A stretch of 64,000 bases of DNA from contig NZ_SMSE01000002.1 of NCBI RefSeq assembly GCF_004354085.1, forward strand, positions 868,001 through 932,000. The letters run 5' to 3'. The position numbers were made by a program, and so were the translations under genes. The stretch is from Seongchinamella unica. Lineage in GTDB: Bacteria; Pseudomonadota; Gammaproteobacteria; Pseudomonadales; Halieaceae. How positions within the stretch are numbered: position 1 is the first letter of the stretch; each line of letters begins with the position of its first letter. The notes under the pieces were generated by a model, which did not search any database, had not been told where the DNA came from, and saw nothing but the letters and a program-made list of their open reading frames with translations. Positions 29,560-51,388 of the stretch are shown piece by piece.

Positions 29560-30186
29560 CTACGCATCCACCGCGATAAAGGATGTGGGGTACGCAGCAT
29601 GCCAGGATGGCCGCTTGGTCACCCCTGTAAACCAGCTGTAAAGCGCTGGAAACTCACGTTCGATCGGGCTACCGTAGGCAGCGGCCACCCCCGCCCTGGC
29701 TGCCAGCGCGCACGCCGCTGCGCTGAGCGTTGCCGAGCTGTCAGCAATCACACTGTCGGCCGTGCCTTCCAACCACTGCTGGCAATCGCGCCAGCGCTGT
29801 TCACTGGCATCGATCAGTTCCCAGTCCCAATCTGGCGGGGCTTTTGAGCGTTTCTCAAACACCAGGTCGCGCAATGCGGGGCCCACACACTTGTCGGAAT
29901 AGGCGTGCAGCAGCCTGACCCGGATCTGTTCCAAAGTGCCAGCAGGCAGCAGCCTGCCCTGGCCATAGGCCGCATCCAGGTAATCGATTATTATCGCCGA
30001 TTCCCAGATGAAAACATCACCATCCACCAGCACTGGCACCGTGCCGACGGGACTGAGGCGACGCACTTCCGGGTGCGGCGCGCCCAACTGGCTGGCTACA
30101 GACTTGTAGTCGACACCAAGCTCCGCCAGTGCCAGGCGCACTTTCCAGCAGAATGGGCAGTCCGTGCGCTCGTATAATGTAATCAA
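29560..30186 (-). CDS. Glutathione S-transferase-like protein
   Basis: A 208-residue protein with an N-terminal thioredoxin-fold GST domain (TDCPFCWKVRLALAE with a CPFC motif, then GTVPVLVDGDVFIWES) and a helical C-terminal domain. The CPFC motif suggests a glutaredoxin-like or omega/beta-like GST that may act by thiol transfer. It directly follows a second GST gene with only 3 bp between stop and start. A role in disposing of reactive ring-cleavage products is inference. Confidence 0.85.
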   Translation of the reverse strand: MITLYERTDCPFCWKVRLALAELGVDYKSVASQLGAPHPEVRRLSPVGTVPVLVDGDVFIWESAIIIDYLDAAYGQGRLLPAGTLEQIRVRLLHAYSDKCVGPALRDLVFEKRSKAPPDWDWELIDASEQRWRDCQQWLEGTADSVIADSSATLSAAACALAARAGVAAAYGSPIEREFPALYSWFTGVTKRPSWHAAYPTSFIAVDA

Positions 30187-30189
30187 TGT

Positions 30190-30978
30190 TTACTCCAGAT
30201 GGGCGGCTATCTTGCTCCAAACCGCCGCCCCTTTATCCTGCAGTTCGATCATCACCTCAGCCGGGAAATCAGCAGCGACTCCCTGCCGGAAAGAAGCGCG
30301 CTCCCGGCAACGCGCAAACCAGTCCGCCACACGCGGACAGTCCGCTTCGTATAGCGGGGTCCAGCTGAACTGCAGCAAGGTCTGGAAGTACGGGACCAGG
30401 CACACGTCCGCCAGGGTAAATCTGTTACCCACAACCCACGCCTGCTGTGACAGGGCCTGTTCCATGTCGAGAATGGTCTTGCGATAGATCTTGACCGCGT
30501 CTGCCACATCGGGTGCATCGAGGCCAAACTGCACCAGGCGTTTCTGACGCTCTCGCCGCGGTTTCTCTACCACCCGGTCCATAATCGCATTTCGCTCCTC
30601 TTCGCTCTTCTCCATCAAGGCCGGGCGCATCACCATTGGCCACTGGATAGTGCCGCAGGACGGGTGCAACTTGACGTCAACGTGCTTCATCCAGAAGCGC
30701 ATCTGTGAACGCGCATACGGATTCCCGGGACTCAGGTCAACATCGGGAAAAATGTCGTTCAGGTACTCGCAAATGATCGATGACTCGATCACCGGGCGAC
30801 CGTCGTGCACCAGGGTTGGCACCACGCCCAGCGGGTTCAACTTCAAATACCAGGGCTCCAGGTTCTCCTTGTCCTGCAGGCTGACGTGGTGGGCGGTCCA
30901 CTCCAGGCCCTTCTCAGCCAGTACGATGCGCACTTTCTGTGCGCAGGGGGACATCGGATGGGTGTAGAGTTCCAACAT
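30190..30978 (-). CDS. Glutathione S-transferase
   Basis: A 262-residue GST. The N-terminal domain has HPMSPCAQKVRIVLAEKGL and VPTLVHDGRPVIESSIICEYL, whose ES pair binds the gamma-glutamyl group. The C-terminal helical domain ends with an RFTLADVCLVPYF capping box. The start is ATG 30978, because the longer frame to 31083 runs into the upstream gene. It is 4 bp after the DsbA-like isomerase gene, so the three thiol-related genes form one tight unit. Confidence 0.88.
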   Translation of the reverse strand: MLELYTHPMSPCAQKVRIVLAEKGLEWTAHHVSLQDKENLEPWYLKLNPLGVVPTLVHDGRPVIESSIICEYLNDIFPDVDLSPGNPYARSQMRFWMKHVDVKLHPSCGTIQWPMVMRPALMEKSEEERNAIMDRVVEKPRRERQKRLVQFGLDAPDVADAVKIYRKTILDMEQALSQQAWVVGNRFTLADVCLVPYFQTLLQFSWTPLYEADCPRVADWFARCRERASFRQGVAADFPAEVMIELQDKGAAVWSKIAAHLE

Positions 30979-30982
30979 GTGG

Positions 30983-31582
30983 TTACAGCCTCCTGAGGCG
31001 CGACGCGTTAAGGTGATCGAGCACGTACTCGATTCGGTCCGAGCCCCAGAACAATTCCTCTCCAATGCGGAAGCTGGGGACACCGATCAGGCCCAGCTCC
31101 TGCGCCTCGGCCCAGTTATCCTCCATCTGTCTGAGGTAACCGGCATCGCTGAAAGCTGCCTGCAGCGCCGCCCGCTCAAGACCGATGTTGTCACCTACCT
31201 GCAACAGCACCTGCTCATTGCCGATGTCCAGGCCCTCGGCCCATTCGGCACGCATCACCTCCACTATCCACTCGCGCAGTACTCCCTGCTCTTCGGCCAG
31301 CAGTGAGGCCGCGCCGGCCATGGTCGGATCGGTGGCGATCGGCGGTGGGTTCATGGGGATGCCCATTTTCGCAGTGATACGGCGCACATCCTGCCGGGTG
31401 AGCGGTACTTTTACCTTGGCCCTCTCTGGCGATGAGCGCCCGGACCAGCCGCCCAGCGGGCGCCACACCATCCTGGTGTGGTAGTCGTCGAAAATACGGA
31501 ACAGTGTTTTCGAGGCGATATAGCAGTAGGGGCTGCGAAAGTTGAAATACAGTGTTACATCAACGGGTTCAGTCATTGTCAT
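30983..31582 (-). CDS. DsbA-like / 2-hydroxychromene-2-carboxylate isomerase family protein
   Basis: A 199-residue kappa-GST-like thioredoxin-fold protein. It has FNFRSPYCYIA near the N-terminus and GVPSFRIGEELFWGSDRI near the end, the hallmark of the NahD/DsbA-like group. NahD is a glutathione-dependent isomerase in naphthalene degradation. The usual dithiol CxxC is absent here and only one Cys remains in SPYCY. An ATG at 31576, with AGAG 8 nt before it, is an alternative start. A terminator lies just upstream. Confidence 0.8.
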   Translation of the reverse strand: MTMTEPVDVTLYFNFRSPYCYIASKTLFRIFDDYHTRMVWRPLGGWSGRSSPERAKVKVPLTRQDVRRITAKMGIPMNPPPIATDPTMAGAASLLAEEQGVLREWIVEVMRAEWAEGLDIGNEQVLLQVGDNIGLERAALQAAFSDAGYLRQMEDNWAEAQELGLIGVPSFRIGEELFWGSDRIEYVLDHLNASRLRRL

Positions 31583-31648: not shown

Positions 31649-32959
31649 CTAGCGGCCCTTGGCGCGCATATTCTGCACGGTGAACAGCTTCACCTGGTTC
31701 AACTCAGGATCAACCTGGCCCTTGAACTGGCCGGTGGTGCAATGACCCGCCTGAATATCCAGCATGGAGAACGCATCGTCAATGGAGACGCCGGTGCCCT
31801 TGTTCTTTTCCAAGTGATGATCGGGATGCGCCTGGCCAATCAGCCAGGATTTCCACAGATCGCCCTTGCGATCATAGATCAGGGTGCGCGGCAGGGTGAA
31901 TGTCTGGGCATCGACGTAGTGCACACGCTTGCTGATCGGGTGGTTCTCATCGATGGGGTCGGACTCAAGCACATATACCTTTCGCAGCTGCCAGGTGATC
32001 TTGGGGAAACAGCCCCCCTTGCCGCCAAAATCTACGAATTGGTAACCATCGCTTTCGACAAGGTCTGTCGCCAGTTCCAGATCGTTGTGATTGAAGAAGG
32101 GCAGCATGATGTTCTTGGTGCCCTTGTAGGTCCAGTTCATATCCGAGATACGGCCGTTGTAGCCTTCGAAGTCCTCGATCATGATGTCGGCGCCGAGGAA
32201 GGCATCGGTGATCTGCCCCGAAGACAGGCGACGTACGCGGCGCTGGAAGCCCAGGTACAGCCAGGTGTTGTCCGCGGTCTGGTCATCCGAGGAGCGGTGA
32301 ATCAACAGTTGGGTGTTTTTCACGTCAAACGGCTCAAGCACCTGCACGTAGATCGCGCGGAACAGGTCTGAGGGGTTATCGGCGAACTCCGGCACCGGAT
32401 CGTGCTGCACCCGATGCTTGTAGTTCAGGAAGTGGAAGTTGTACTTCAAGGTACGCTCCACCTTACCGGACTCCAGGTCGCGGTATTTCCAGTAGAACGG
32501 ATAGATCGCGGCGCTATCGCCCCAGTTGTAACCGTACTTGTAGTTCCAGGCCAGCTTTTCGCCGGCGCGCGGGTCATCGGCGCTGGGTTCCTCGGGGAAA
32601 GGACGGCCGGCAACGAAGCCATTGATCTGGCCGAGCTCATCACCAAGAGAGACCTTGCCCATGCCGCTGCGCGTTGCTTCCACGTAGGCAGGGTAGAGAT
32701 CAAAGGAAGTGGTTTCCGCCACCTGCATTTCCCACCAGCCGTTCTTCAGCTGCTCGTAGGTAGCGGGGTCCAGTGCATCCTTGAACTGGTCTGCGTTGGA
32801 TGCATTGATCGTCATGCCCACTTCCAGGCCGGGAAAGCTGGGGGCGCCGTCCTTGTAAGGATAGAAGGAGTTGTCCACCACATCGGCCATCGCTGACTGG
32901 CTGGAGCCGATAGCGGCGGCCAGGGCCAGGGTTGTTGCTGTTTTCTTGAACATTGTCAT
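31649..32959 (-). CDS. DUF1329 exported protein, copy 1
   Basis: A 436-residue periplasmic protein. A signal peptide ends near SAMADVVDN (about 24-26). The DUF1329 body includes LLIHRSSDDQ, a DAFLGADIMIEDFEGYNG stretch, and GKGGCFPKITWQLRKVYVLE. The family has a LolA/LolB-like barrel and is usually encoded next to DUF1302, MMPL and YCF48 genes, exactly as here. It lies 18 bp after DUF1302. A lipid or hydrophobe carrier role is inferred from fold and context. A second copy lies at 43248-44540. Confidence 0.85.
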   Translation of the reverse strand: MTMFKKTATTLALAAAIGSSQSAMADVVDNSFYPYKDGAPSFPGLEVGMTINASNADQFKDALDPATYEQLKNGWWEMQVAETTSFDLYPAYVEATRSGMGKVSLGDELGQINGFVAGRPFPEEPSADDPRAGEKLAWNYKYGYNWGDSAAIYPFYWKYRDLESGKVERTLKYNFHFLNYKHRVQHDPVPEFADNPSDLFRAIYVQVLEPFDVKNTQLLIHRSSDDQTADNTWLYLGFQRRVRRLSSGQITDAFLGADIMIEDFEGYNGRISDMNWTYKGTKNIMLPFFNHNDLELATDLVESDGYQFVDFGGKGGCFPKITWQLRKVYVLESDPIDENHPISKRVHYVDAQTFTLPRTLIYDRKGDLWKSWLIGQAHPDHHLEKNKGTGVSIDDAFSMLDIQAGHCTTGQFKGQVDPELNQVKLFTVQNMRAKGR

Positions 32960-32977
32960 ATCTCCGTATTATCTCGA

Positions 32978-34936
32978 TTAGAAGCGGTAGCGTAGGGTGA
33001 CCTGGAATTCGTCTTCCTCACTGGCGCTACCCAGCGGGCCAGAGCGGAAACGTCCCAGCGGCTGCACACCGCTCAGGCCGACAGAACCTGATTGCATCGG
33101 GTCGGCGTGGGCCGGGCTTGCGGTAAAGGGCGGGAAGGGGTTACAGGTGCGGCAGTCGTCAAACTCCTGATCACCCATGCCGTCGCCAAACTTGATGTTG
33201 AAGCCCACGATCAGGCGCCAGTTGTCGTTGATCAGCCAGTCGACAGAGGGAGCGACGGTACCCGCCTCGGCCTCGTAATCGTAGGCCATGATGATCTGGG
33301 GGCTGATGGTATCGGACTTGTACCACCCCTTGATCAACAGGGTCGCGATGTAGTTGTCCTCCCAGTCGGGCATACCGATATCACCCAGCGGCGCCTTCTC
33401 CAGTTCGTGGTCCAGCAGGTGCTGGCCGAAGACCTGGCCGGAAATCAGAAAGGCCCGCTTCTTGTTGAGAAAGGGGATAAAGGTATTGCGATCTACACCC
33501 AGCACCCAGCGCATCACGTCTGATTCGGAGTACAGGTCGGGCTCAATGGAGTTGGCGAACTCCTCACCCTGTGTGTAAGTGGCCTCAACCCGGAATACCG
33601 TCTTGATCGCGTCGATGTAGAAATCCAGGGAGCCACCGAACAGGTCCACTTCCGGGAAATTGATATCGAATGCGATCAGGTGATCCCAGTCGGCGATTTC
33701 GCCGGTAAAGGCATTCATCGACTCGATATCACCACGCAGCGTCGGTAACTGCTGGTAGTAGTGGTAGTAGTTCAGGGAGAAGCCTACACTCTTGTAAACA
33801 CCCTCCAACTTGATACCTCCCTGGTCGTGGCCGGAGGGCATATCAACCTTGCGGATACCGATGACCCCAGGAGCGAAGTCCGCCGCGATCAGGCCGGGAT
33901 CGTCCAGACCGATGGCGCCCGCCGGGACGAAGTTGGAGACGGTACAGCCGTTCTCCCAGCAGTTGTTCATGGCGCGGAAGAAAGAGCCCGCATCGAGGAT
34001 GGAATACGGCGTGCCACCCTGCCCCAGGTCATTGGGGCGGAACTGGTCGAAATTCCAAACTACCTGCAGGTTCAGGTCATCAAAGATATCCGTGGCGCCC
34101 CAGCGATACTCCGCCGTCGCAATCCACTGCGGGATACGTATATCCTCCAGTTCGTCGTAGATGTTCTGGCGCGAGAAATCCACCGGGTTGATCACGTCCA
34201 GCACCCGGAACAGGTCGGTGCGCCCCCAGACCACTTGTTGCTTGCCGACACGGAAGAACCATTCGGACATATCACCGGTGGGTACGCTGCCTTCAAAATA
34301 CAGCTCGCGGATGAAATCCAACTCGTCATTGAATTCCGGGAAGCGCAGGTCGTTGGTGTCGTAGTCCATGTAGTCGTCGAGACCACAGCCGCGGGAATCC
34401 TTGTCACAGGGACGCACCGGCACACCGATGGTGACACCGCCCATGGGGTCGTGCATGTCCTCGCCGAGAACCTTCAGTCCCCGGTTGGGGTTGCTGGAAA
34501 CGTCGTACAGGAAGCCCGGCGGAATGGCGCCGGGCGGACCGCCATTGCCCAGGATAGACTGCCCCCAGGGCGAGTCTGTGCCGCCGTAGATTGCCTGGGC
34601 GGTAGTACTGCCGAAGTTCTCGAACGAACGCGAGCCGCCGGCATCGTGGCCGTAATCTTCCGAGTTGAGATCGTAGACCGCGTCATAGGTAGCCCGCAGG
34701 GTACCGCTGACGCGGAAATTGTTCATGCCGAACTTCTTGCCGAAGTCCTTACTGAACTCGAACTGCCCCGTGTTGCGAGATTTGGACAGGCCCACGCCGT
34801 CGCGGTAGAACGTCGCGTTCTCCACAAAACCCGCTGTATCCCACTGTTCATCCTGGGCATGGGCGCCAGTGGCCCCCACACCCGCCAGGAGCGTGGTACT
34901 TCCCAGCGCGGTAAGAATCTTGCTTATCTTTTTCAT
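32978..34936 (-). CDS. DUF1302 outer-membrane protein
   Basis: A 652-residue protein. Its signal peptide ends GAHAQDEQW (about 30). Alternating polar/aromatic strands follow, with the sequence FQVTLRYRF at the C-terminus, the terminal-Phe signature of Bam-assembled beta-barrels. The middle has the family's EFNDELDFIRELYFEG and VGKQQVVWGRTDLFR segments. The start ATG 34936 follows GAGGGAA; a longer frame to 34990 is not supported. DUF1302 proteins accompany hydrophobic-substrate catabolic clusters and are suspected barrel channels. Confidence 0.87.
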   Translation of the reverse strand: MKKISKILTALGSTTLLAGVGATGAHAQDEQWDTAGFVENATFYRDGVGLSKSRNTGQFEFSKDFGKKFGMNNFRVSGTLRATYDAVYDLNSEDYGHDAGGSRSFENFGSTTAQAIYGGTDSPWGQSILGNGGPPGAIPPGFLYDVSSNPNRGLKVLGEDMHDPMGGVTIGVPVRPCDKDSRGCGLDDYMDYDTNDLRFPEFNDELDFIRELYFEGSVPTGDMSEWFFRVGKQQVVWGRTDLFRVLDVINPVDFSRQNIYDELEDIRIPQWIATAEYRWGATDIFDDLNLQVVWNFDQFRPNDLGQGGTPYSILDAGSFFRAMNNCWENGCTVSNFVPAGAIGLDDPGLIAADFAPGVIGIRKVDMPSGHDQGGIKLEGVYKSVGFSLNYYHYYQQLPTLRGDIESMNAFTGEIADWDHLIAFDINFPEVDLFGGSLDFYIDAIKTVFRVEATYTQGEEFANSIEPDLYSESDVMRWVLGVDRNTFIPFLNKKRAFLISGQVFGQHLLDHELEKAPLGDIGMPDWEDNYIATLLIKGWYKSDTISPQIIMAYDYEAEAGTVAPSVDWLINDNWRLIVGFNIKFGDGMGDQEFDDCRTCNPFPPFTASPAHADPMQSGSVGLSGVQPLGRFRSGPLGSASEEDEFQVTLRYRF

Positions 34937-34986
34937 CGGATTCCCTCTAGAGGTGTGTATTTGGTGACCGCTTTTGGTCGTTATTA

Positions 34987-37407
34987 TCAAGCCGCTACGG
35001 GCTTTGCCTGAATCTCGTCATCCAGTAGTTCTGCCTGGACAATAAATTTCGGCCTGAACCTGACAATCCAGGCGGGTACCAGGTTGGCCGCTGCCCACGC
35101 GTTCAGGATCAACATCACTACCAGCAATAGGGCCGCATCAGCCTGGAAGCGCAGGTCGGATACGAAGGCCCACATCACCACGCCGCCAATCAGTGCTGTG
35201 GCGGTAAAGGCGATGGCCTTGCCGGTAGTGGCAATGGCATGGCGGATACCGGCCCCGAGGTCGCCCTCTGCCCGGGCGGTTTCCTCCCGCACCCGGTCCA
35301 TCATGTAAATCGAGTAGTCGATGCCCACGCCGATACCCACCGCAATGATGGGCACCGTGTTGACATCGATGCCGATGCCGACAATGCCCATGTAGGCGTA
35401 GGTAGCCACGGTGCAAAAGGTCATCACCAGGAACATCAGCCAGCCCGCGTGAAAGGACCAGTAGAACAGAGTGACGAACAGGAAGATCAAGGCCATGGCT
35501 GCGGGAATAATCACCAAGTTGCTCTCGAAGGCCGCCTCGTTGATCGCGGCGGTCACGCCGATGGGGCCGCCTGCCAGGCGAACCTCAAGACCCTCGACCT
35601 GGTTGGCCGGGTCGTCGATCCACTCCTTCGCCATGTGGATAGCCCGGCGCAGGGTCTCGCCCTTATGATCTTTGTAGAAGAACACCAGGTTGGCGGTCTG
35701 GTCATCGGTGTCGACGAACTCCTTGAGCGCGCCGGGAATCGGGCTGGAGGCCATGAAGGCGAACATCAGCCCGCCGACGTAGCTCGCCTCGTCAGGGATC
35801 ACCGCCCAGCGCGGGTCGTCGTTGTGCAGAATCTGGTTCACCTGCTTGACCAGGTCCGGCATGCCCTTGCTGCCGCCCATCTCCGGGTCCTGCAGCATAT
35901 GGATCTGCAGGTCTTCCAGCGCGCGCAACACCTCCGGCCGTTTCATACCGCCGGGTTCGTCCGTATGGGCGACAATGTACATCTCCTCCGAGCCCGGGAA
36001 GTTGTCATTGATATTCTTTGACGACACGTTGTAGTCGTGGTCGGGATAGAGAATCGGCGAACCCGGCTCCGACTCACCAATTTGCACTTTCGAACTTAGC
36101 AGCCCGCCACCCGCGTATACGGCAAATGCGAGCAACAACACAGCCAGCGAGCCGCCCTTGCTGGTAACAAAGCGCGCCAGCGAGGCGAACACCCCGGCCT
36201 GGGCCTTGTCGGCGGCGTCTACGCTGACCTTGCTCAGGGGCAGCAGCGACAGGATCAGCGGCACTGCCATCAACACGGTGATCACCACGGTGCCCGCCCA
36301 GATGGAGGCGTAGATGCCAAGCTTGACGTTGATCGGCGACGAACCCAGTGAAATCAGCAGCAGGCCCACCGCATCGGACACGATACCGAGGGTACCCGGG
36401 CGAAACAGGGTTTCGAAGGTGCGTCTGGCGGCGTCGTGGCTGTCGGCCGCCTCGAGCGCCTCCAGGTAGTAACGCTCCACCAACTGGATACCGTGGGACA
36501 TCGCCCTCGCCGTGATCAGAAAGGGGATCACCAGGGTCAGCGGATCCAGGTTGTAGCCCAGCAGGGAGACAATACCGAGGCCCCAGGTAGCAGAAATCAT
36601 CACCCCGATCAGGGGCAGCAGGATGCCGTAGCCGCGGGTGCGGAAATAGGCCACTAGCAGCGCCAGCAGGATGGCCATGGTGAGCAGAAATATCTGCATG
36701 ATCTGGCCCAGGTAGCTGTACACCCAGCCCATCAACACCGGCTGGCCAGTAGCGTATATGTGTACACCCTGAGCCGCCTCGTCGACACGCAATTGCTCCA
36801 CCTCGTCCTTGAGCTCGCCGAGCTGACGGAAAATCTCCACGTAATCCAGCTGCCCCTCATTGAAAGTGCCGCGGATCAGAGCGGACTTGAGGTCTGGTGC
36901 CACCAGCAGGCCGTAGACCGTCGGGTTGGCCATCACGTCCAGGCGCAGCTGCTCCAGTTGTTCCTGGCTCATGTCGGGGTAAAGCGGGTCGTAATAAGCC
37001 TCGGAATTCATATTGCCCATCTCTGTCATCCAGTTCTTGCGAACCGTGCGATGAGTGAGGCTGCGCACCAGGTTGTGGTTCACGCCGGGCAGGGAATCGA
37101 CCCCCTGGGTCAGGCGATGGATGCGCGATAGGGTGTCGGAGTTAAAGATATCGCCCTCCTCTACCGAGATGGCCATGACCACGTTGTTGGCGCCACCGAA
37201 TGTGTCTTTTACATCGTTGTGCAACTGGATATAGGGGTGTTCCTGCGGCAACAGGTCGGCGAAATTGGAGTACATTTCCAGGTAGGGAATACGGCTGGCG
37301 AAGAATAAAGTTGCCAGCAGGATTACCGACAGGAATGTCTTGGGGTGATAGAACACAAATACCTCTATCAACCTGAAGAACCGACTGATTACGCTATCTT
37401 GTTTCAC
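34987..37407 (-). CDS. MMPL/RND-superfamily transporter
   Basis: An 806-residue inner-membrane protein with two similar halves. Each half has one N-terminal helix, a large periplasmic loop (about 50-230 and 430-625) and five clustered helices. The sixth-segment-like motif GIGVGIDYSIYMMDRV resembles the proton-relay region of MMPL/HpnN lipid exporters. This single-polypeptide type moves hydrophobic molecules or lipids, unlike tripartite drug pumps. It is 7 bp downstream of the YCF48 gene and about 50 bp before DUF1302. Confidence 0.88.
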   Translation of the reverse strand: MKQDSVISRFFRLIEVFVFYHPKTFLSVILLATLFFASRIPYLEMYSNFADLLPQEHPYIQLHNDVKDTFGGANNVVMAISVEEGDIFNSDTLSRIHRLTQGVDSLPGVNHNLVRSLTHRTVRKNWMTEMGNMNSEAYYDPLYPDMSQEQLEQLRLDVMANPTVYGLLVAPDLKSALIRGTFNEGQLDYVEIFRQLGELKDEVEQLRVDEAAQGVHIYATGQPVLMGWVYSYLGQIMQIFLLTMAILLALLVAYFRTRGYGILLPLIGVMISATWGLGIVSLLGYNLDPLTLVIPFLITARAMSHGIQLVERYYLEALEAADSHDAARRTFETLFRPGTLGIVSDAVGLLLISLGSSPINVKLGIYASIWAGTVVITVLMAVPLILSLLPLSKVSVDAADKAQAGVFASLARFVTSKGGSLAVLLLAFAVYAGGGLLSSKVQIGESEPGSPILYPDHDYNVSSKNINDNFPGSEEMYIVAHTDEPGGMKRPEVLRALEDLQIHMLQDPEMGGSKGMPDLVKQVNQILHNDDPRWAVIPDEASYVGGLMFAFMASSPIPGALKEFVDTDDQTANLVFFYKDHKGETLRRAIHMAKEWIDDPANQVEGLEVRLAGGPIGVTAAINEAAFESNLVIIPAAMALIFLFVTLFYWSFHAGWLMFLVMTFCTVATYAYMGIVGIGIDVNTVPIIAVGIGVGIDYSIYMMDRVREETARAEGDLGAGIRHAIATTGKAIAFTATALIGGVVMWAFVSDLRFQADAALLLVVMLILNAWAAANLVPAWIVRFRPKFIVQAELLDDEIQAKPVAA

Positions 37408-37414
37408 TTTGCTA

Positions 37415-38419
37415 TTACCTGTTGTTGTTTGTCAGCGCTTCAGCCTCGGCCAACGGGATAACCGCCAGCGTGCCGCCGCCCCCCGCCACCAGCAGAGTGC
37501 CATCGCCGAGGGTATCGACGCCGCGCATGAACGCCAGTACCTCAGGGGCGCCCGCGAACAGCTGCCACTCGCCGTCCTGCAACTCCACCAGCTTGGCGCT
37601 GCCGCCCACGGCGAATACGCCGCGTTCGCTGGCGTGCACGTTATAGATCGGCGCGGAAGTCACCGTTTGCTGGCGCTGCCAGCTCACACCCCCATCTGTG
37701 GTCTGCCAGACCACGCCGTCCAGGCCGCCGGCCCAGCCGGTGTTCGCATCCAGGAAGTCGACACCCATGGGATAGAATTCATTGGGGATGGGCTCCAGAG
37801 TTACCCAGCTGTCGCCGCCGTCAGTGGAGGTCAGGACCGTGCCGAACTCACCCAGGGCATAGCCTTTCTGTTCATCAACAAAACGCACTGCTGTGAACTG
37901 AAGGTCTTCGTAGAGACTGAATTCGGTCCAGTCCTGCATGTCGCCCTCAGCCCAGAACAGGGTGCCAAAGGCAGCGGAAACCCAGAGCCGACCATTGGGG
38001 GCGCAATGGATTGAGAGCACGGCCTCGGGTGTATCAATGGCGGAGGACTGCCACTGCTCGCCGTCGCGACGCCATACGCGTCGATCGGTATCCAGGGCGT
38101 AGAACTGACCTGAAGGACAGGCCGTGATACCGATAAGGGCAGGGCGGCCCGGAAGCTCGCTGCGCTGCCAGTTCTTGCCGCTGTCGGTCGAGGCAATCAC
38201 TGCACCCACAGAGCTGACCACCATGACCTCGCTACCTGAGTGAGCAACAGCCTGCAGCATGTCGTAGCGGCGCAGGTCTCTAGCGCCTTCTGCCTCTACA
38301 TGCTCTAAATTGAGCGGAGCCTCGCAGGCTGCCAGCACGCTGCCCAGGAGCAGCATACCGACACGGTAAGCCGAGGCGCCTTCGGTTATTTTCGACAGGA
38401 TTGTTATTGCTATCTTCAT
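37415..38419 (-). CDS. YCF48-like beta-propeller lipoprotein
   Basis: A 334-residue protein with an N-terminal helix and lipobox SVLAAC (Cys about 32), so it is probably lipid-anchored. Asp-box/BNR-type repeats follow: STDSGKNWQ, TSTDGGDSW and QTTDGGVSW, separated by ~60 residues, forming a beta-propeller like photosystem assembly factor HCF136/Ycf48. There is no photosynthesis here. The YCF48-MMPL-DUF1302-DUF1329 set points to an assembly or coupling factor for the transporter. Confidence 0.85.
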   Translation of the reverse strand: MKIAITILSKITEGASAYRVGMLLLGSVLAACEAPLNLEHVEAEGARDLRRYDMLQAVAHSGSEVMVVSSVGAVIASTDSGKNWQRSELPGRPALIGITACPSGQFYALDTDRRVWRRDGEQWQSSAIDTPEAVLSIHCAPNGRLWVSAAFGTLFWAEGDMQDWTEFSLYEDLQFTAVRFVDEQKGYALGEFGTVLTSTDGGDSWVTLEPIPNEFYPMGVDFLDANTGWAGGLDGVVWQTTDGGVSWQRQQTVTSAPIYNVHASERGVFAVGGSAKLVELQDGEWQLFAGAPEVLAFMRGVDTLGDGTLLVAGGGGTLAVIPLAEAEALTNNNR

Positions 38420-41769: not shown

Positions 41770-42025
41770 AATTATATTCTCCGTTTATTTCTGTGCTGCA
41801 GATATTCAGACACAATCTTTTTATCGATATTTAATGTGAATAACGATAGTTTATATTTTCCCCTTTGCCAAGCTTTTATCGATATTTTATTTTTTATATA
41901 TATTTTAAAGCTAATTCGTTTTTGATCTAAAAAAACCTTCGATTATCGATGTAACTCCAAGTATTCTCGTAATCGAATTACAACTGAGTAAATTTTCACT
42001 TTCCCGAGGCACAATAAAGAACCAC
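41770..42025. promoter_or_regulatory. AT-rich divergent control region between dmpB and gntR
   Basis: The 14-mer TTTTATCGATATTT occurs twice in direct orientation (41819-41832 and 41874-41887, 55 bp apart), with a related ATTATCGATGT near 41943. A 13-bp palindrome GTAATCGAATTAC (41969-41981) lies 45 bp before the gntR start. Some or all of these are good candidates for GntR operators. The stretch is far more AT-rich than its surroundings. No sigma-54 site was seen for dmpB here. Confidence 0.55.
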
Positions 42026-42685
42026 ATGGAAGCGACAACTCTCACTGACCAGGCCTACCAGCGACTGCGCCAAGACATAGTCCACGGTAGGTTCGAGCCT
42101 GGTGACAAACTCGGTATCGAGTTCCTCAAGCGCACTTATGAAGTAGGTGCGACTCCCCTGAGGGAAGCCCTCTACCGCCTCAGTTCCGATGGGTTTGTAC
42201 AGGTAAAGGGGCAGCGGGGCTTCCGTGTGGCCGACATGTCGCCCACCGAACTGGAAGACATCACCAACCTGCGAGTAGTTCTCGAAGGCATGGCACTCGC
42301 CCAAAGTGTGGAAAACAGCGATGATGAGTGGGAGTCCCGAGTTGTCGCCACCTTTCATCACCTGACCAAGGCGGAAATGCAGAAAGAACCAGACATCCAC
42401 GAGTGGGAGGTACGCAACCGAGAATTCCACCTCGCCCTCGTCTCTTGTTGCGAATCCCCGTGGCTGATGCGCTTCCACGAGATTCTGTACGACCAGCACA
42501 AGCGCTATCGCAACCTGGCCCGGGTTGACCGCAGCACCCGGCGCAACGTCCACGCCGAACATATCGCTATCTGTGACGCAGCACTGGCCAAGAACATTAC
42601 CGCCCTGTGTGAGGCGAACGAACAACACATCCGCCGCACCGCAGAAATCACGCGCAAGTTGTTGGAAGGTAACCTGGAAGGATAG
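42026..42685 (+). CDS. GntR-family (FCD) transcriptional regulator
   Basis: A 219-residue regulator. The N-terminal winged helix (about 5-70) reads AYQRLRQDIVHGRFEPGDKL and TPLREALYRLSSDGFV. A C-terminal all-helical FCD ligand domain contains REFHLALV and the His/Asp metal-type residues of the FadR subgroup. It is the only plus-strand gene in the island and diverges from dmpB. It probably represses dmpB-C-H and answers a pathway acid; that is inference from position. Confidence 0.9.
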   Translation: MEATTLTDQAYQRLRQDIVHGRFEPGDKLGIEFLKRTYEVGATPLREALYRLSSDGFVQVKGQRGFRVADMSPTELEDITNLRVVLEGMALAQSVENSDDEWESRVVATFHHLTKAEMQKEPDIHEWEVRNREFHLALVSCCESPWLMRFHEILYDQHKRYRNLARVDRSTRRNVHAEHIAICDAALAKNITALCEANEQHIRRTAEITRKLLEGNLEG

Positions 42686-42811
42686 GTCCTGCACCTGGGC
42701 GGGACGTTCAAGCATCACCCGCCCTCCAGCTGTTGCTGCAGCGCCAGGCCTTGGGCACTGCATCACTGGCGACCGCGTCGAGCCGCTTCGGGGGCCCTGG
42801 CAGTGAGACCT

Positions 42812-43198
42812 TCACGCCGTCGCCCTGGCGATATCCCGGTCCTGTTCGGCGGTGGCGCCAGAGACGCCCACCGCACCGATCAGTTCGTCACCGTCGAACA
42901 GTGGCACCCCACCATGGAATACGGCAAGCCCGCCGTTGCTCAGCTCCATGCTGCCCAGGTTTTCATCCACGATGAGCTTGCCGAAATCGCCGGTCTCCAT
43001 GGGAAACAACACCGCAGTGCGGGCCTTGCGCTGCGCCACATCGATGGCACCGCGAATAGCGCCGTCCATACGGTGGAATGCTTTCAGGTGCCCGCCGGCG
43101 TCGACCACCGCGATACAGACGGCAACGCCCAACTCACTGGCCCGACTCTGGGCCTTGTCGAGCAGGCCCCGGGCCTGTTCGTCATCGATTTCATTCAT
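42812..43198 (-). CDS. GlcG/HbpS-family (DUF336) protein
   Basis: A 128-residue single-domain protein. It has VAVCIAVVDAGGHLKAFHRMDGA, KARTAVLFPM and a GGVPLF...IGAVGVSGATAEQDRDIA ending, all typical of the GlcG/HbpS heme-binding-like family. These small proteins are common at the ends of aromatic and glycol catabolic operons, but their role is unclear. It is the last minus-strand gene of the phenol hydroxylase block, 49 bp after DUF1329 copy 2. Confidence 0.85.
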   Translation of the reverse strand: MNEIDDEQARGLLDKAQSRASELGVAVCIAVVDAGGHLKAFHRMDGAIRGAIDVAQRKARTAVLFPMETGDFGKLIVDENLGSMELSNGGLAVFHGGVPLFDGDELIGAVGVSGATAEQDRDIARATA

Positions 43199-43247: not shown

Positions 43248-44540
43248 TTACCGGCCCATCTGGCGCATGTAGCTGGTGTTAAACAGTTTGTGGCGCAGCG
43301 GTTTGGCCGCCATCCGGGATTTCAGCGACAGCGTGGTGCAGTGCTCGGCCTGCAGGTCGACCATACTCACGCCATCGGTAGCAGCACCCTGCCAGGCCTC
43401 GTTCTCGGCGGTATGAAAAGCCGAATGGCTCTGGGCGACAATACCCAGTTTCCAGAGCTTGCCTGTGCGGTCGTAGATACGGGTCAGCGCCGGGGTGAAG
43501 GTGACTGCATCAATGATGTAATGGCGCCGCGACAGTGGATGGCGCCCGTCCTTCGGCTGGGCCTGAAGCAGGTGGACCTTGCGCAACTGCCAGGTCACCT
43601 CGGGAAAGCAGTGGCCCTTGCCGGCAAAGGCAATATCCCGGTAACCGTCCTGGTCCATTTCCTGCTGCGCCAGGTCAAGCTGGTTGTGGGCGTACATGGG
43701 CAGTAGTTGCTCCGAGCTCCCAAGGTAGGTCCATTCCATATCCATGATGCGCCCGTTATAACCGAGGAAGTCCTCGATCATGATGTCGCTGCCGAGGAAG
43801 GCGTCGGTCTTCTGGCCGGTGGCAATGCGCTTCACCCGACGCTGGGTGTTCAGGTACATCCAGGCCTGCTCCGGCTCGGTGTCGTCCTGCGCCCGGTGAA
43901 TCAGCAACTGGGTGTTGCGTATATCCTGGGGGCTGCTGACGCGCAGGTAGATCGCCGAGTAGAGGTTAGCAGGGTTGTCTTCCAGCGCGGGCAGCGGTTC
44001 GTGGGAATGGCGGTGGGTGTAGCGCAGGATCGCGCCATACATGGCGATAGTCCGTTCGAGCTTGTCCTTGCGCATGTCGCGGTAACGCCAGATAAAGTGC
44101 GCTGTCTCGGTCTCATCGGGCGCATAGGTGTAGCGCATATTCCAGGCGGCCTTCAGCCCCGCCTGGGGATCCTCTTCATCCAGGCCGACAAAGGGACGTC
44201 CCCCGGCATAACCCGGCAGCTTACCGCCATCTGGAAGCAGCCCGGTTTTTCCAAGACTCGCGCCCGTGGCCTCCAGGTAACGTGGGTGGACAGGGAACTC
44301 CAGTTGCGGGCCGAGTTCGATCTCGAAATGGCCGGCACCAACGCTGTCCACCACAGTTTCATCCAGCCAGGGAGCATACTGCTCGACATTGGCACTGCTG
44401 ATCTTATTTCCCGCTGCCAACAATGGATCGGCAGCGCCTTCCAGCGGCGGCGCAAACTCCAGCTCCAGCGTTGGCTGCTCCTGGGCCAGAACGCCCGGAA
44501 CCAGCAGCGTAGCGGCGAGCACAATCGCGCCGGGTAACAT
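43248..44540 (-). CDS. DUF1329 exported protein, copy 2
   Basis: A 430-residue paralogue of the protein at 31649-32959. It has a signal peptide (VPGVLAQEQ, about 20-21) and the same landmarks: LLIHRAQDD, DAFLGSDIMIEDFLGYNG and GKGHCFPEVTWQLRKVHLL. It lies in the phenol hydroxylase block, 6 bp after the ferredoxin gene, and would be under the sigma-54 promoter. Having one copy with the hydroxylase and one with the transporter suggests the two act on different stages or ligands. Confidence 0.83.
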   Translation of the reverse strand: MLPGAIVLAATLLVPGVLAQEQPTLELEFAPPLEGAADPLLAAGNKISSANVEQYAPWLDETVVDSVGAGHFEIELGPQLEFPVHPRYLEATGASLGKTGLLPDGGKLPGYAGGRPFVGLDEEDPQAGLKAAWNMRYTYAPDETETAHFIWRYRDMRKDKLERTIAMYGAILRYTHRHSHEPLPALEDNPANLYSAIYLRVSSPQDIRNTQLLIHRAQDDTEPEQAWMYLNTQRRVKRIATGQKTDAFLGSDIMIEDFLGYNGRIMDMEWTYLGSSEQLLPMYAHNQLDLAQQEMDQDGYRDIAFAGKGHCFPEVTWQLRKVHLLQAQPKDGRHPLSRRHYIIDAVTFTPALTRIYDRTGKLWKLGIVAQSHSAFHTAENEAWQGAATDGVSMVDLQAEHCTTLSLKSRMAAKPLRHKLFNTSYMRQMGR

Positions 44541-49578: not shown

Positions 49579-49594
49579 AGCAAGGGCCGTGCCA
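49579..49594 (-). promoter_or_regulatory. Sigma-54 promoter for the phenol hydroxylase operon
   Basis: Minus strand: TGGCAC (49594-49589), 5 bp, TTGCT (49583-49579). This is the -24/-12 consensus, TGGCAC-N5-TTGCW. Expected start near 49567. It is fed by the DmpR-type activator at 49712-51388. Confidence 0.9.
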
Positions 49595-49669: not shown

Positions 49670-49718
49670 TTCATGAAATGATGAATCGTTTCATGAGGCT
49701 GATTCATCATTTCATGAA
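49670..49718. promoter_or_regulatory. Paired upstream activator sites for the DmpR-like regulator
   Basis: Site A is TTCATGAAATGATGAA (49670-49685) and site B is TTCATCATTTCATGAA (49703-49718). They are exact reverse complements of each other, and the full matching arms are 18 bp. Centres are 33 bp apart, about three helix turns, and roughly 110 and 143 bp upstream of the predicted start. Each fits TTxATxAAxTxATxAA, the spacing of conserved bases in the DmpR/XylR site TTGATCAATTGATCAA. Site B overlaps the regulator's own stop codon. Confidence 0.85.
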
Positions 49719-51388
49719 ATTTTTGGGCTGCCGTTTTTTTTCAGCCGGTAGTCCAGAGTGGCCCGGGACAGCCCCAACAGCTTTGCCGCTCGGGTGATAT
49801 TGCCGCTTACCCGGTCCATGGCGCCGGCAATCATCTGTGCCTCCACATCGGCCAGAGGGCACTCCTGGTTGAGCAGTGTAGCCACCAGTCCCTCCAGCGG
49901 GGCTTCGGCGGGTCCCGCCTTTACACTGGCCCCGCCGGGCGGGGCAGTATCCTGCAGGTGGGGGAACAGGTGTGAATGCTCGATCTCCCCTCCCTGGTGA
50001 GCGAGAATCACACCGCGCTCAATCACATTGCCCAGTTCGCGGATATTGCCCGGCCAGTGGTAGGCGCGCAGGGCCGCCATGGTACGGTCGGTAACCCCAG
50101 CCACCAGTTTGCCGTGCAGGGAACTGTACTTGTCCACGAAGTGACGCACCAGGTCGGGCAGGTCGTCGATACGCTCCCGCAGCGGCGGCACCGTGACCGA
50201 GTACACGTTGAGGCGGTATAGCAGATCGGCGCGGAAACGCCCCTCCGCCACCGCCTGCTCGAGGTTCTCATTGGTGGCTGCCACCAGGCGCACGTCCACC
50301 TTGCGGGTGCGGGTATCCCCCACCCGTTCCAGTTCACTCTCCTGCAGCACCCGCAGCAGTGCCGCCTGGGCCTGGGGTGACAACTCCCCCACCTCGTCGA
50401 GGAACAGGGTCCCGCCGTGGGCGCGCTCGAAACGCCCGGGACGCGAATGGTCGGCACCGGTATAGGCGCCCTTCTCCACCCCGAACAGTTCCGCCTCAAT
50501 CAGGTCGGCAGGTATGGCGGCACAATTGACCGCAACGTAAGGCTTGTCGTGGCGCGGACTGCCCTGGTGCAGAGCCTTGGCAAACATATCCTTGCCCACA
50601 CCGGTCTCACCCAGCAATAGCACGGTGACCTTGCTCTCAGCCGCTCGCGCGAGTAGTTCGCGCACTTCCAGGAAGGGCGTGGAGCAACCTATCAGGTCGC
50701 CGAAGCCCCGCTCGGTGATCAGGTTCTCACGCAGGGCGGTGACCTGGGACTGCAGCGAGAACAACTGGTCGGCAATACGGTCGGGACGGTAGTAGCGAAG
50801 CAGTTCTTCAGCGTCGTCCCATTCCTCCGCCGGGCGCCCTTCGATACGGCACATCTTCTCACCGCAGCCCATGCAGCCCAGTTCGCGGAACAGGATCTGG
50901 CGGCCGACAAAGCGCGAAGTGAAGCCGCTGGCATAGCCGATCTGCGACCAGCATACGGGTTCGAAACTGACTCCGTACTCGTCCAGGAAGATTTCTGCTT
51001 CGAAGGAGTTCTGCCACTCGAATACGCCGTGGAAGGTGTGCTCCTCCTCGTCCAGTTCCAGGCTTACAGGGGTCACCTTCACCTGACCGGTGACCATGTG
51101 TGATTGGGGTCCCACGGAAAACACATCGAACAGGGGAGCGTCGGGGCGCAGGCGGCGCGCGGTATCGGCGTCGCGCTGACCGGCCACGTAGCCCATTCGG
51201 ATCAACAAGCCCTTGGCGCGGTCGATACCCAGGGATTCGATCATCTCCTTACGCAGGGCCTGCAGCTCACTTGAGCGCAATAAAACCATGCGCTCTTCCG
51301 CGAGCCAGATGCGGCCCTCTTCGGGCTCAAAGCGCAGCAGGTCCTGTATGTCGTCTAGCGCCGGAAGATCCGGCAATGTGCTGGTCAT
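49712..51388 (-). CDS. dmpR: DmpR/XylR-family sigma-54-dependent activator
   Basis: A 558-residue activator with four parts. These are a XylR_N phenol-sensing domain (about 10-120), a V4R domain (about 135-205, with CMGCGEKMCRIEGRP), an AAA+ domain with Walker A GETGVGKD and the sigma-54-contacting GAYTGA, and a Fis-type helix-turn-helix at the end (NITRAAKLLGLSRATL). It binds aromatic effectors directly and drives the promoter at 49579-49594. The contact loop reads GAYTGA rather than the common GAFTGA, a tolerated variant. Unlike Pseudomonas dmpR, which is divergent, this gene points the same way as its operon. Confidence 0.95.
   Translation of the reverse strand: MTSTLPDLPALDDIQDLLRFEPEEGRIWLAEERMVLLRSSELQALRKEMIESLGIDRAKGLLIRMGYVAGQRDADTARRLRPDAPLFDVFSVGPQSHMVTGQVKVTPVSLELDEEEHTFHGVFEWQNSFEAEIFLDEYGVSFEPVCWSQIGYASGFTSRFVGRQILFRELGCMGCGEKMCRIEGRPAEEWDDAEELLRYYRPDRIADQLFSLQSQVTALRENLITERGFGDLIGCSTPFLEVRELLARAAESKVTVLLLGETGVGKDMFAKALHQGSPRHDKPYVAVNCAAIPADLIEAELFGVEKGAYTGADHSRPGRFERAHGGTLFLDEVGELSPQAQAALLRVLQESELERVGDTRTRKVDVRLVAATNENLEQAVAEGRFRADLLYRLNVYSVTVPPLRERIDDLPDLVRHFVDKYSSLHGKLVAGVTDRTMAALRAYHWPGNIRELGNVIERGVILAHQGGEIEHSHLFPHLQDTAPPGGASVKAGPAEAPLEGLVATLLNQECPLADVEAQMIAGAMDRVSGNITRAAKLLGLSRATLDYRLKKNGSPKIS

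Follow-up and report, generated by a model that had tools for sequence, protein, structure and literature searches.

How do bacteria that consume phenol and other solvents keep their membranes from dissolving? The question is a practical one for bioremediation and for solvent-tolerant production strains, and it is raised by four genes in a stretch of 64,000 nucleotides from Seongchinamella unica (contig NZ_SMSE01000002.1, positions 868,001 to 932,000; hereafter the window), which encode envelope proteins and lie inside a cluster for phenol degradation. We find that the system is already known, AmeABCD of Castellaniella defragrans being a relative with the four families, and that the window holds a new, well-placed example of it, not a new kind of machine. 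Our reading, to which we assign a probability of about 0.6, is that the genes form an AmeABCD-type, four-part, RND-driven trans-envelope system belonging to the phenol regulon, whose most likely role is to shield the cell against the substrate on which it feeds.

A co-directional set of envelope genes within a phenol cluster

The four genes run on the minus strand from 38419 down to 31649, and their families, recognized in Pfam above the cut-offs, are those named in a first-pass annotation that had seen only the letters and their open reading frames (ORFs):

37415..38419, minus strand: YCF48/PSII_BNR beta-propeller lipoprotein, AmeC-like, 334 aa (PSII_BNR, 54.7 bits)
34987..37407, minus strand: RND/MMPL inner-membrane transporter, AmeD-like, 806 aa (MMPL, 84 bits)
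32978..34936, minus strand: DUF1302 outer-membrane barrel, AmeA-like, 652 aa (DUF1302, 149.8 bits)
31649..32959, minus strand: DUF1329 putative periplasmic LolA-fold carrier, AmeB-like, 436 aa (DUF1329, 262.5 bits; LolA_like, 61.3 bits)

For the DUF1302 gene, the mechanical ORF (32978-34990) begins at a TTG at 34990; we chose the ATG at 34936, which is followed by a clear signal peptide. The set had been placed between dmpH and the dmpE-F-G genes. These flanks are right, as dmpH (38456) and then dmpC lie upstream and dmpE, dmpF and dmpG lie downstream, but a DSBA-family gene and two glutathione S-transferase (GST)-like genes, in that order, separate the set from dmpE. Further upstream are a catechol 2,3-dioxygenase gene, genes for phenol-hydroxylase-type subunits and a MobR-like sigma-54 regulator. 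Intergenic gaps from dmpC through dmpG do not exceed 151 bases, and one long transcript across the phenol cluster is the likely prediction.

The four products are predicted to span the envelope

The label "propeller lipoprotein" holds for the YCF48 protein because the cysteine of its lipobox, Cys32, is invariant (26 of 26 aligned proteins). The protein also matches a solved Ycf48-like protein (E 6e-21) and is likely a docking or assembly part. The best NCBIfam match of the MMPL protein was HAE3 (TIGR00921, E 8.1e-39), at 133.2 bits against a cut-off of 351.9; MmpL3 structures were matched over residues 597-774 (E 1.4e-8), and the solved relatives include, besides MmpL3, an NPC1-related sterol transporter. 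An Asp-Tyr pair in transmembrane helix (TM) 10 (Asp697 in the window) is present in 122 of 126 MMPL rows, in which some genes recur, twice or up to three times, because their loci carry more than one name. A Ser-His pair in TM4 (His305 in the window) is present in 123, the remaining three being RND rows without YCF48 that carry Asp there. The TM4 pair is a candidate partner for proton transfer; we take these positions to be equivalent to those of MmpL3. We toned down the Asp-to-His change in TM4 as a mark unique to this lineage, since the RND proteins L140-L143 (two of these from the same genome) also lack the Asp.

The DUF1302 protein ends in LRYRF, as had been noted, and its model (predicted local distance difference test score, pLDDT, 79.4; predicted template modeling score, pTM, 0.82) is a barrel. 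Its closest structures were OccK/OprD channels (OpdF, Z 22.7, root-mean-square deviation 2.9 over 295 aligned residues; BenF-like porin, Z 21.9), with OpdK (vanillate) among the matches of this type, and the exporter AlgE scored a Z of about 20. Because uptake-type OccK channels and AlgE both match well, we discarded the barrel fold as evidence for the direction of transport. A plain Foldseek search with the same model returned many kinds of barrel, TonB-dependent receptors at the top, with poor template modeling scores. In Pfam at E 0.001 the protein matched DUF1302 alone and no OprD/OccK profile; it is therefore described as OprD/OccK-like in fold and is not filed with those families.

The DUF1329 protein belongs to the LolA superfamily by its LolA_like score, for which the cut-off is 30 bits, and its model (mean pLDDT 86.8) matches LolA3 (E 2.6e-18), the DUF1329 structure 4z48 (E 1.8e-16) and E. 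coli LolA (E 1.1e-5). None of the four proteins matched a membrane-fusion adaptor or a TolC-family channel of the HAE1, AcrAB-TolC type (Pfam, E 0.001). By family and predicted fold, then, the four parts together would span the envelope, as the first-pass annotation had proposed.

The set and its gene order are conserved

Co-occurrence statistics had been suggested as a check on the set, and the co-occurrence of the four families is non-random. We counted neighbors within 8 kb in 38 related genomes (the window's own included), taking in 93 rows for MMPL and 33 for weak RND matches, from which second or weaker pieces were excluded, and 59 rows for YCF48 (about one per gene). Strong MMPL rows (at least 220 bits; n = 50) had YCF48 nearby in all 50 cases, DUF1329 in 43, DUF1302 in 43 and all three in 41, with random placement expected to give about 0.6, 1.0 and 0.7 for the three partners, respectively. 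A DUF1329-type neighbor accompanied 1 of the 33 weak RND matches, and DUF1302 and YCF48 accompanied none of them. Rows of 90-220 bits (n = 20) had DUF1329-type neighbors in 13 cases, DUF1302-type in 9, YCF48 in 2 and all three in 0, and rows below 90 bits (n = 23) had them in 5, 1, 0 and 0. The mixed middle classes indicate that a looser RND/LolA-type/barrel grouping without the propeller exists. Four trios made up of an MMPL gene, a LolA-type stretch with weak likeness to DUF1329 and a DUF1302-like barrel, each without a YCF48 match, lie at G008:C3:58134-62557, G030:C3:332829-337212, G019:C6:1866308-1871295 and G013:C11:442110-446629; judged by their genes, they may be read as a three-part version of the same idea.

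For gene order we write A for DUF1302, B for DUF1329, C for YCF48 and D for RND/MMPL, so that the window reads C-D-A-B. Of the named loci, for which we took the best 80 of 131 (overlapping with the 38 related genomes), 68 had exactly this order. Among the other 12, seven had the first three genes, two had the first two, one started inside the MMPL gene, one had divergent DUF genes and one had a doubled DUF1302. The nearest named MMPL relatives were from Pseudohalioglobus sediminis (93%), Haliea alexandrii (91%) and P. lutimaris (91%). Downstream of the set, relatives of the DSBA gene were found in 25 and of the GST-like gene at 29560..30186 in 24 of 61 testable loci.

The set is linked to phenol genes

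At least two phenol or meta-cleavage genes lay near the set in 48 of the 80 named loci and in 38 of the 51 that span at least 20 kb; when a MobR-like regulator was added as a criterion, these counts rose to 62 and 45. Around more distant paralogues, no phenol or meta-cleavage enzyme gene was found (0 of 11 loci), and two of these loci had MobR-like matches at 37-39%. The position of the set varies by genome: it may follow dmpH, the catechol dioxygenase gene or dmpP, or it may diverge from dmpL or from the regulator. This variation indicates that the linkage outlived rearrangement.

Presence across genomes agrees. The MMPL clade of the window (at least 59% identity) was found in 7 of 7 related genomes bearing dmpN vs 1 of 31 without it (G008), and in the window's genus the two were both present in four and both absent in four of eight sampled genomes. 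A class-wide sample of 368 other genomes contained dmpN in 12 (at least 63%), the clade in 7 (at least 53%; in G339 in two pieces) and both in 6 (hypergeometric p 2e-9, ignoring kinship), although p-values from this sample overstate independence because its rows share descent. In four of those six genomes, dmpN and the clade MMPL lay within 20 kb on one contig. The set, which the first-pass annotation had placed inside a phenol pathway, is thus tied to phenol and aromatic catabolism beyond chance.

Gene content likewise shows the set to be widespread in bacteria that probably degrade aromatics, namely marine Halieaceae, Oceanospirillaceae, clam symbionts and Aromatoleum, and cultured hosts exist. 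Candidatus Thiodiazotropha and related clam symbionts are sulfur oxidizers in which aromatic breakdown would be unexpected; the set accompanies meta-cleavage genes in eight of their loci (L072, L073, L076-L078, L080, L087 and L089). Pfam was also run on 13 flanking ORFs. Beside the Aromatoleum cassette L126 it recognized a PAS sensor kinase together with a response regulator of the LuxR type, and another five ORFs there gave no match; the pair adjoining this A. toluvorans set (L126:6143-8572) perhaps senses toluene. Two loci without phenol genes, L075 and L081, had TonB-dependent receptors, an AMP-binding enzyme, pyruvate-oxidoreductase-type subunits and a molybdopterin-dehydrogenase-type subunit as neighbors, which point to no clear pathway.

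Sigma-54-type sites precede many relatives

The only strict -24/-12 site in the window is at 49594, with the MobR-like gene adjoining it, and a further regulator lies within the phenol cluster:

49579..49594, minus strand: sigma-54-type -24/-12 promoter-like site TGGCACGGCCCTTGCT, between mobR and the phenol genes
49712..51388, minus strand: MobR-like sigma-54-dependent regulator (NF041906, E 6.5e-192; 638.8 bits, below the cut-off of 999)
42026-42685, plus strand: GntR/FCD regulator, on the strand opposite to the phenol cluster

Of the 76 loci that could be tested, 19 had a strict site of this type upstream of YCF48, vs 0.4 expected. With a looser pattern, sites were found in 21 of 45 loci that have no co-directional annotated gene directly upstream vs 4 of 31 that have one. 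Two arrangements therefore seem to occur: in one, that of the window, the set is part of the phenol operon; in the other the set is separate, and in roughly half of such loci it would be under a sigma-54-type site of its own. AphS, a regulator of phenol operons considered below, is of the GntR type, and the GntR/FCD regulator of the window is a possible AphS-like repressor. A minus-strand candidate, unk256 (41996-42766), was rejected as a gene in favor of this plus-strand ORF.

The window holds a new example of a described system

According to the first-pass annotation, no member of the set was well characterized and the four genes formed a new trans-envelope system. The first statement overlooks AmeABCD, phnL and the Pseudomonas putida genes PP_0765, PP_0766, PP_2018 and PP_2019. 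As to the second, the core inference is sound, though not new, given AmeABCD and the operons of Suvorova and Gelfand (2019). In C. defragrans, AmeABCD is described as DUF1302, DUF1329, YCF48/COG4447 and HAE3-type RND proteins encoded in a hydrocarbon-degradation cluster; the deletion strain reportedly grew poorly on limonene and tolerated monoterpenes less well, and its cells, when treated with carbonyl cyanide m-chlorophenyl hydrazone (CCCP), showed slightly raised Nile Red uptake (PMC6394551). The window shares with it the DUF1302, DUF1329, YCF48 and RND/MMPL families, together and co-directional in a degradation cluster, but the order there is A-B-C-D and the substrates are monoterpenes, whereas here the order is C-D-A-B and the surroundings are phenol and meta-cleavage genes. 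In our MMPL tree, which holds no row known as AmeD, the clade of the window stands apart from the A-B-C-D rows. Because the gene order differs and the same genome has a separate A-B-C-D cassette, we file the set with the broad four-part kind and not as an AmeABCD orthologue.

Suvorova and Gelfand (2019) described phenol regulons of Betaproteobacteria, under AphS, AphR and AphT, that include the four families; they named AphS as a regulator of four-family phenol operons and proposed a role against toxic aromatics or solvent stress for COG4447, COG1033, PF07044 and DUF1302 (PMC6449761). Those operons, predicted to be co-transcribed or co-regulated with the aph phenol genes, contain the same families, and the set in the window is likewise co-located with phenol and meta-cleavage genes under a predicted phenol regulator; here, however, the host is of the Halieaceae and the regulators are MobR-like and GntR/FCD.

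Other relatives have been described in part. P. putida PP_0765, PP_0766, PP_2018 and PP_2019 were reported as required for growth with Tween 20, and contacts were predicted between the DUF1302 and DUF1329 proteins and among DUF1329, PP_2018 and PP_2019 (PMC10866462). These genes recall the present set in that a DUF1302-DUF1329 pair is joined by a periplasmic protein and by an efflux transporter, the mutant phenotypes being linked, but by their numbering they form two separate loci, and the phenotype is on Tween 20, not on an aromatic. In Delftia Cs1-4 three of the families occur in a phenanthrene cluster, where disruption of the YCF48 gene phnL was reported to lower extracellular protein by 96% and to leave fewer and shorter nanopods (PMC3958437), in which DUF1302 and DUF1329 proteins had been detected (PMC3110197); this envelope phenotype was read there as one of vesicle formation. 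The benzene degrader ORM2a, unlike our organism an anaerobic member of the Desulfobacterota, is described as having a nanopod-like cluster of DUF1329, YCF48, MMPL and a porin-like protein, with a universal stress protein in addition, that is highly expressed on benzene (PMC13101534). A Zoogloea phenol cluster also contains DUF1302 and DUF1329 (PMC7012976). We did not use the EbN1 "efflux" cluster ebA326-ebA335 (6.5 kb, under the sigma-54 regulator EtpR), whose size fits but whose families are not named in the passages on that cluster (PMC4630880). To these descriptions we add a well-supported clade with rotated gene order, figures for co-occurrence with dmpN, the sigma-54-type sites, the frequent DSBA and GST-like neighbors and an example of a split set.

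Export is favored over uptake, lipid upkeep and a passenger role

In the mechanism that we propose, the RND protein, driven by the proton gradient, would lift a hydrophobic aromatic, or a lipid disturbed by one, from the inner membrane. The DUF1329 protein, for which a greasy pocket is expected from the LolA fold, would ferry this cargo through the periplasm, and the DUF1302 barrel, with its OccK/OprD-like porin shape, would pass it through the outer membrane or admit it into that membrane. The YCF48 lipoprotein would dock on the RND protein or aid its assembly. We favor export as the direction for such cargo, which on balance would let the cell tolerate phenol, cresols and further solvents during their consumption.

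Several observations weigh against this protective export. The efflux data for AmeABCD are modest, in that Nile Red efflux curves of the ameABCD mutant and the wild type were reported as almost identical (PMC6394551), and the requirement for the P. putida relatives on Tween 20 also fits uptake or lipid upkeep (PMC10866462). The barrel is slightly closer to OccK and BenF-like channels than to AlgE. The TM4 Asp of the three YCF48-less RND rows is His here, which makes the proposed proton coupling less certain. Neither two phenol genes nor a MobR-like gene was found in 18 of the 80 named loci (6 of the 51 of at least 20 kb). The clade was also absent from 6 of the 12 dmpN genomes of the class sample (own genome excluded) and is thus not required for phenol use.

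Phenol passes membranes unaided, which argues against an uptake system, in which the barrel would admit aromatics, the LolA-type protein would carry them inward and the RND or YCF48 protein would hand them to the inner membrane to feed the pathway. RND pumps of the HAE3 type are described as delivering their substrates to the periplasm, and de-energized ameABCD deletion cells as taking in more dye (PMC6394551). We consider uptake unlikely on these grounds, even with a barrel model nearest to channels such as OpdK and the BenF-like porin, with the Tween 20 requirement, and with the direction of transport left open in the 2026 paper on the similar benzene cluster (PMC13101534). It is also improbable, in our judgment, that the set serves membrane upkeep under solvent, moving phospholipid or another lipid between the membranes or driving vesicle shedding, with the aromatic not being the cargo. 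LolA is a lipoprotein carrier, and the LolA fold of the DUF1329 protein speaks for this role, as do the solved relatives of the RND protein, MmpL3 and the sterol transporter. The loss of extracellular protein and nanopods upon phnL disruption (PMC3958437) and the presence of DUF1302 and DUF1329 proteins in nanopods (PMC3110197) point the same way. Against upkeep, the set is linked to particular substrate pathways as well as to regulators and sites of the sigma-54 type, which suggests that the substrate matters.

We see very little chance that the four genes are mere passengers, carried by mobile catabolic clusters without contributing to the use of phenol. An MMPL tree that joins distant phyla, a copy beside the dmp cluster on a conjugative plasmid and the dmpN genomes without the clade would all suit passengers, but linkage persists even though the set occupies more than one place within the clusters; where it stands apart, a sigma-54-type site of its own is often present, and in most loci all four parts are retained. 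Within the protective export that we prefer, a broader and more tentative idea, which we hold with less than even confidence, is that the set may represent, for phenol, one branch of a general class of RND exporters in which a free-moving LolA-type carrier and a porin-like barrel replace the fixed adaptor/TolC tunnel. The YCF48 protein would then be the loading platform, and the DSBA and GST-like neighbors may prepare the cargo, for example by conjugation. If true, this would be a second basic design for pumping solvent out of a two-membrane cell.

Kinship, probable transfer and an apparently split set

The MMPL tree comprised 57 of the 126 rows, hand-chosen and with hand-set order labels. A clade of 32 rows (support 100/99) contains the window together with 29 named loci and two rows taken from the sampled genomes (one identical to a named locus). 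Of these 32 rows, 31 are labeled C-D-A-B; L117 was so labeled though cut by a contig end after DUF1302. Outside this clade are a 17-row group with A-B-C-D, C-D-A-B, C-D-A or C-D, a four-row group (D-B-C-A or similar) and a lone long row, the EbN1 plasmid set, with C-D-A-B. L054 was labeled A-B-C-D, yet DUF1302 was not found nearby. The branching order among the groups is unsure, and the tree program warns of long branches meeting. Members of the clade come from Gammaproteobacteria, Rhodocyclaceae, Burkholderiales, Emcibacteraceae and metagenome-assembled genomes placed in Myxococcota and Thermodesulfobacteriota, a spread that points to transfer. One copy adjoins the dmp cluster of a conjugative Pseudomonas veronii plasmid, on which YCF48 and DUF1329 are annotated and the place of DUF1302 crosses the record start. 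The MMPL match on this plasmid is in two pieces (L056:18001-20114), and one in-frame stop was reported at G387:C2:223102-225450; decay or sequencing error is possible in both cases.

The genome of the window carries further relatives of the set. A separate A-B-C-D cassette lies at C3:433886-440666, and a DUF1302-DUF1329 pair lies at C5:320429-323424, a locus with no MMPL or YCF48 match. The latter pair is 51% and 63% identical, respectively, to its counterparts in the C-D-A-B set of another genome, G014 (the DUF1302 stretch used there has one stop inside, probably the gene's own end), and a lone YCF48-MMPL pair at C3:163500-166753 groups with the MMPL of the same G014 set. From these resemblances, the two pairs look like one set split over two distant loci, similar to the P. 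putida gene numbering (PP_0765/0766 and PP_2018/2019). Such a split fits an outer half (DUF1302-DUF1329) and an inner half (YCF48-RND) that meet in the periplasm. It suggests that the halves are separable in a genome while perhaps still cooperating, which narrows how the machine can be built.

Other genes of the phenol cluster

The remaining features of interest lie on both sides of the set:

30983..31582, minus strand: DSBA-family protein (DSBA, 96.6 bits)
30190..31083, minus strand: GST-like protein with GST_N domains; the listed ORF overlaps the DSBA gene
29560..30186, minus strand: second GST-like protein (GST_N_3, 75 bits)
42812-43198, minus strand: HbpS-like (heme-degrading family) small protein of the phenol cluster, also found in several relatives
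43248..44540, minus strand: second DUF1329 protein of the same phenol cluster (DUF1329, 218.6 bits)

The DSBA-family protein has no evident signal peptide as read from its sequence, and the true start of the GST-like ORF that overlaps it is probably further in. The second DUF1329 protein is 42% identical to that of the set over 429 aa, and extra DUF1329 copies were also found within about 16 kb of the set in relatives (G004:C77:82570, G005:C35:46522 and G027:C15:17216).

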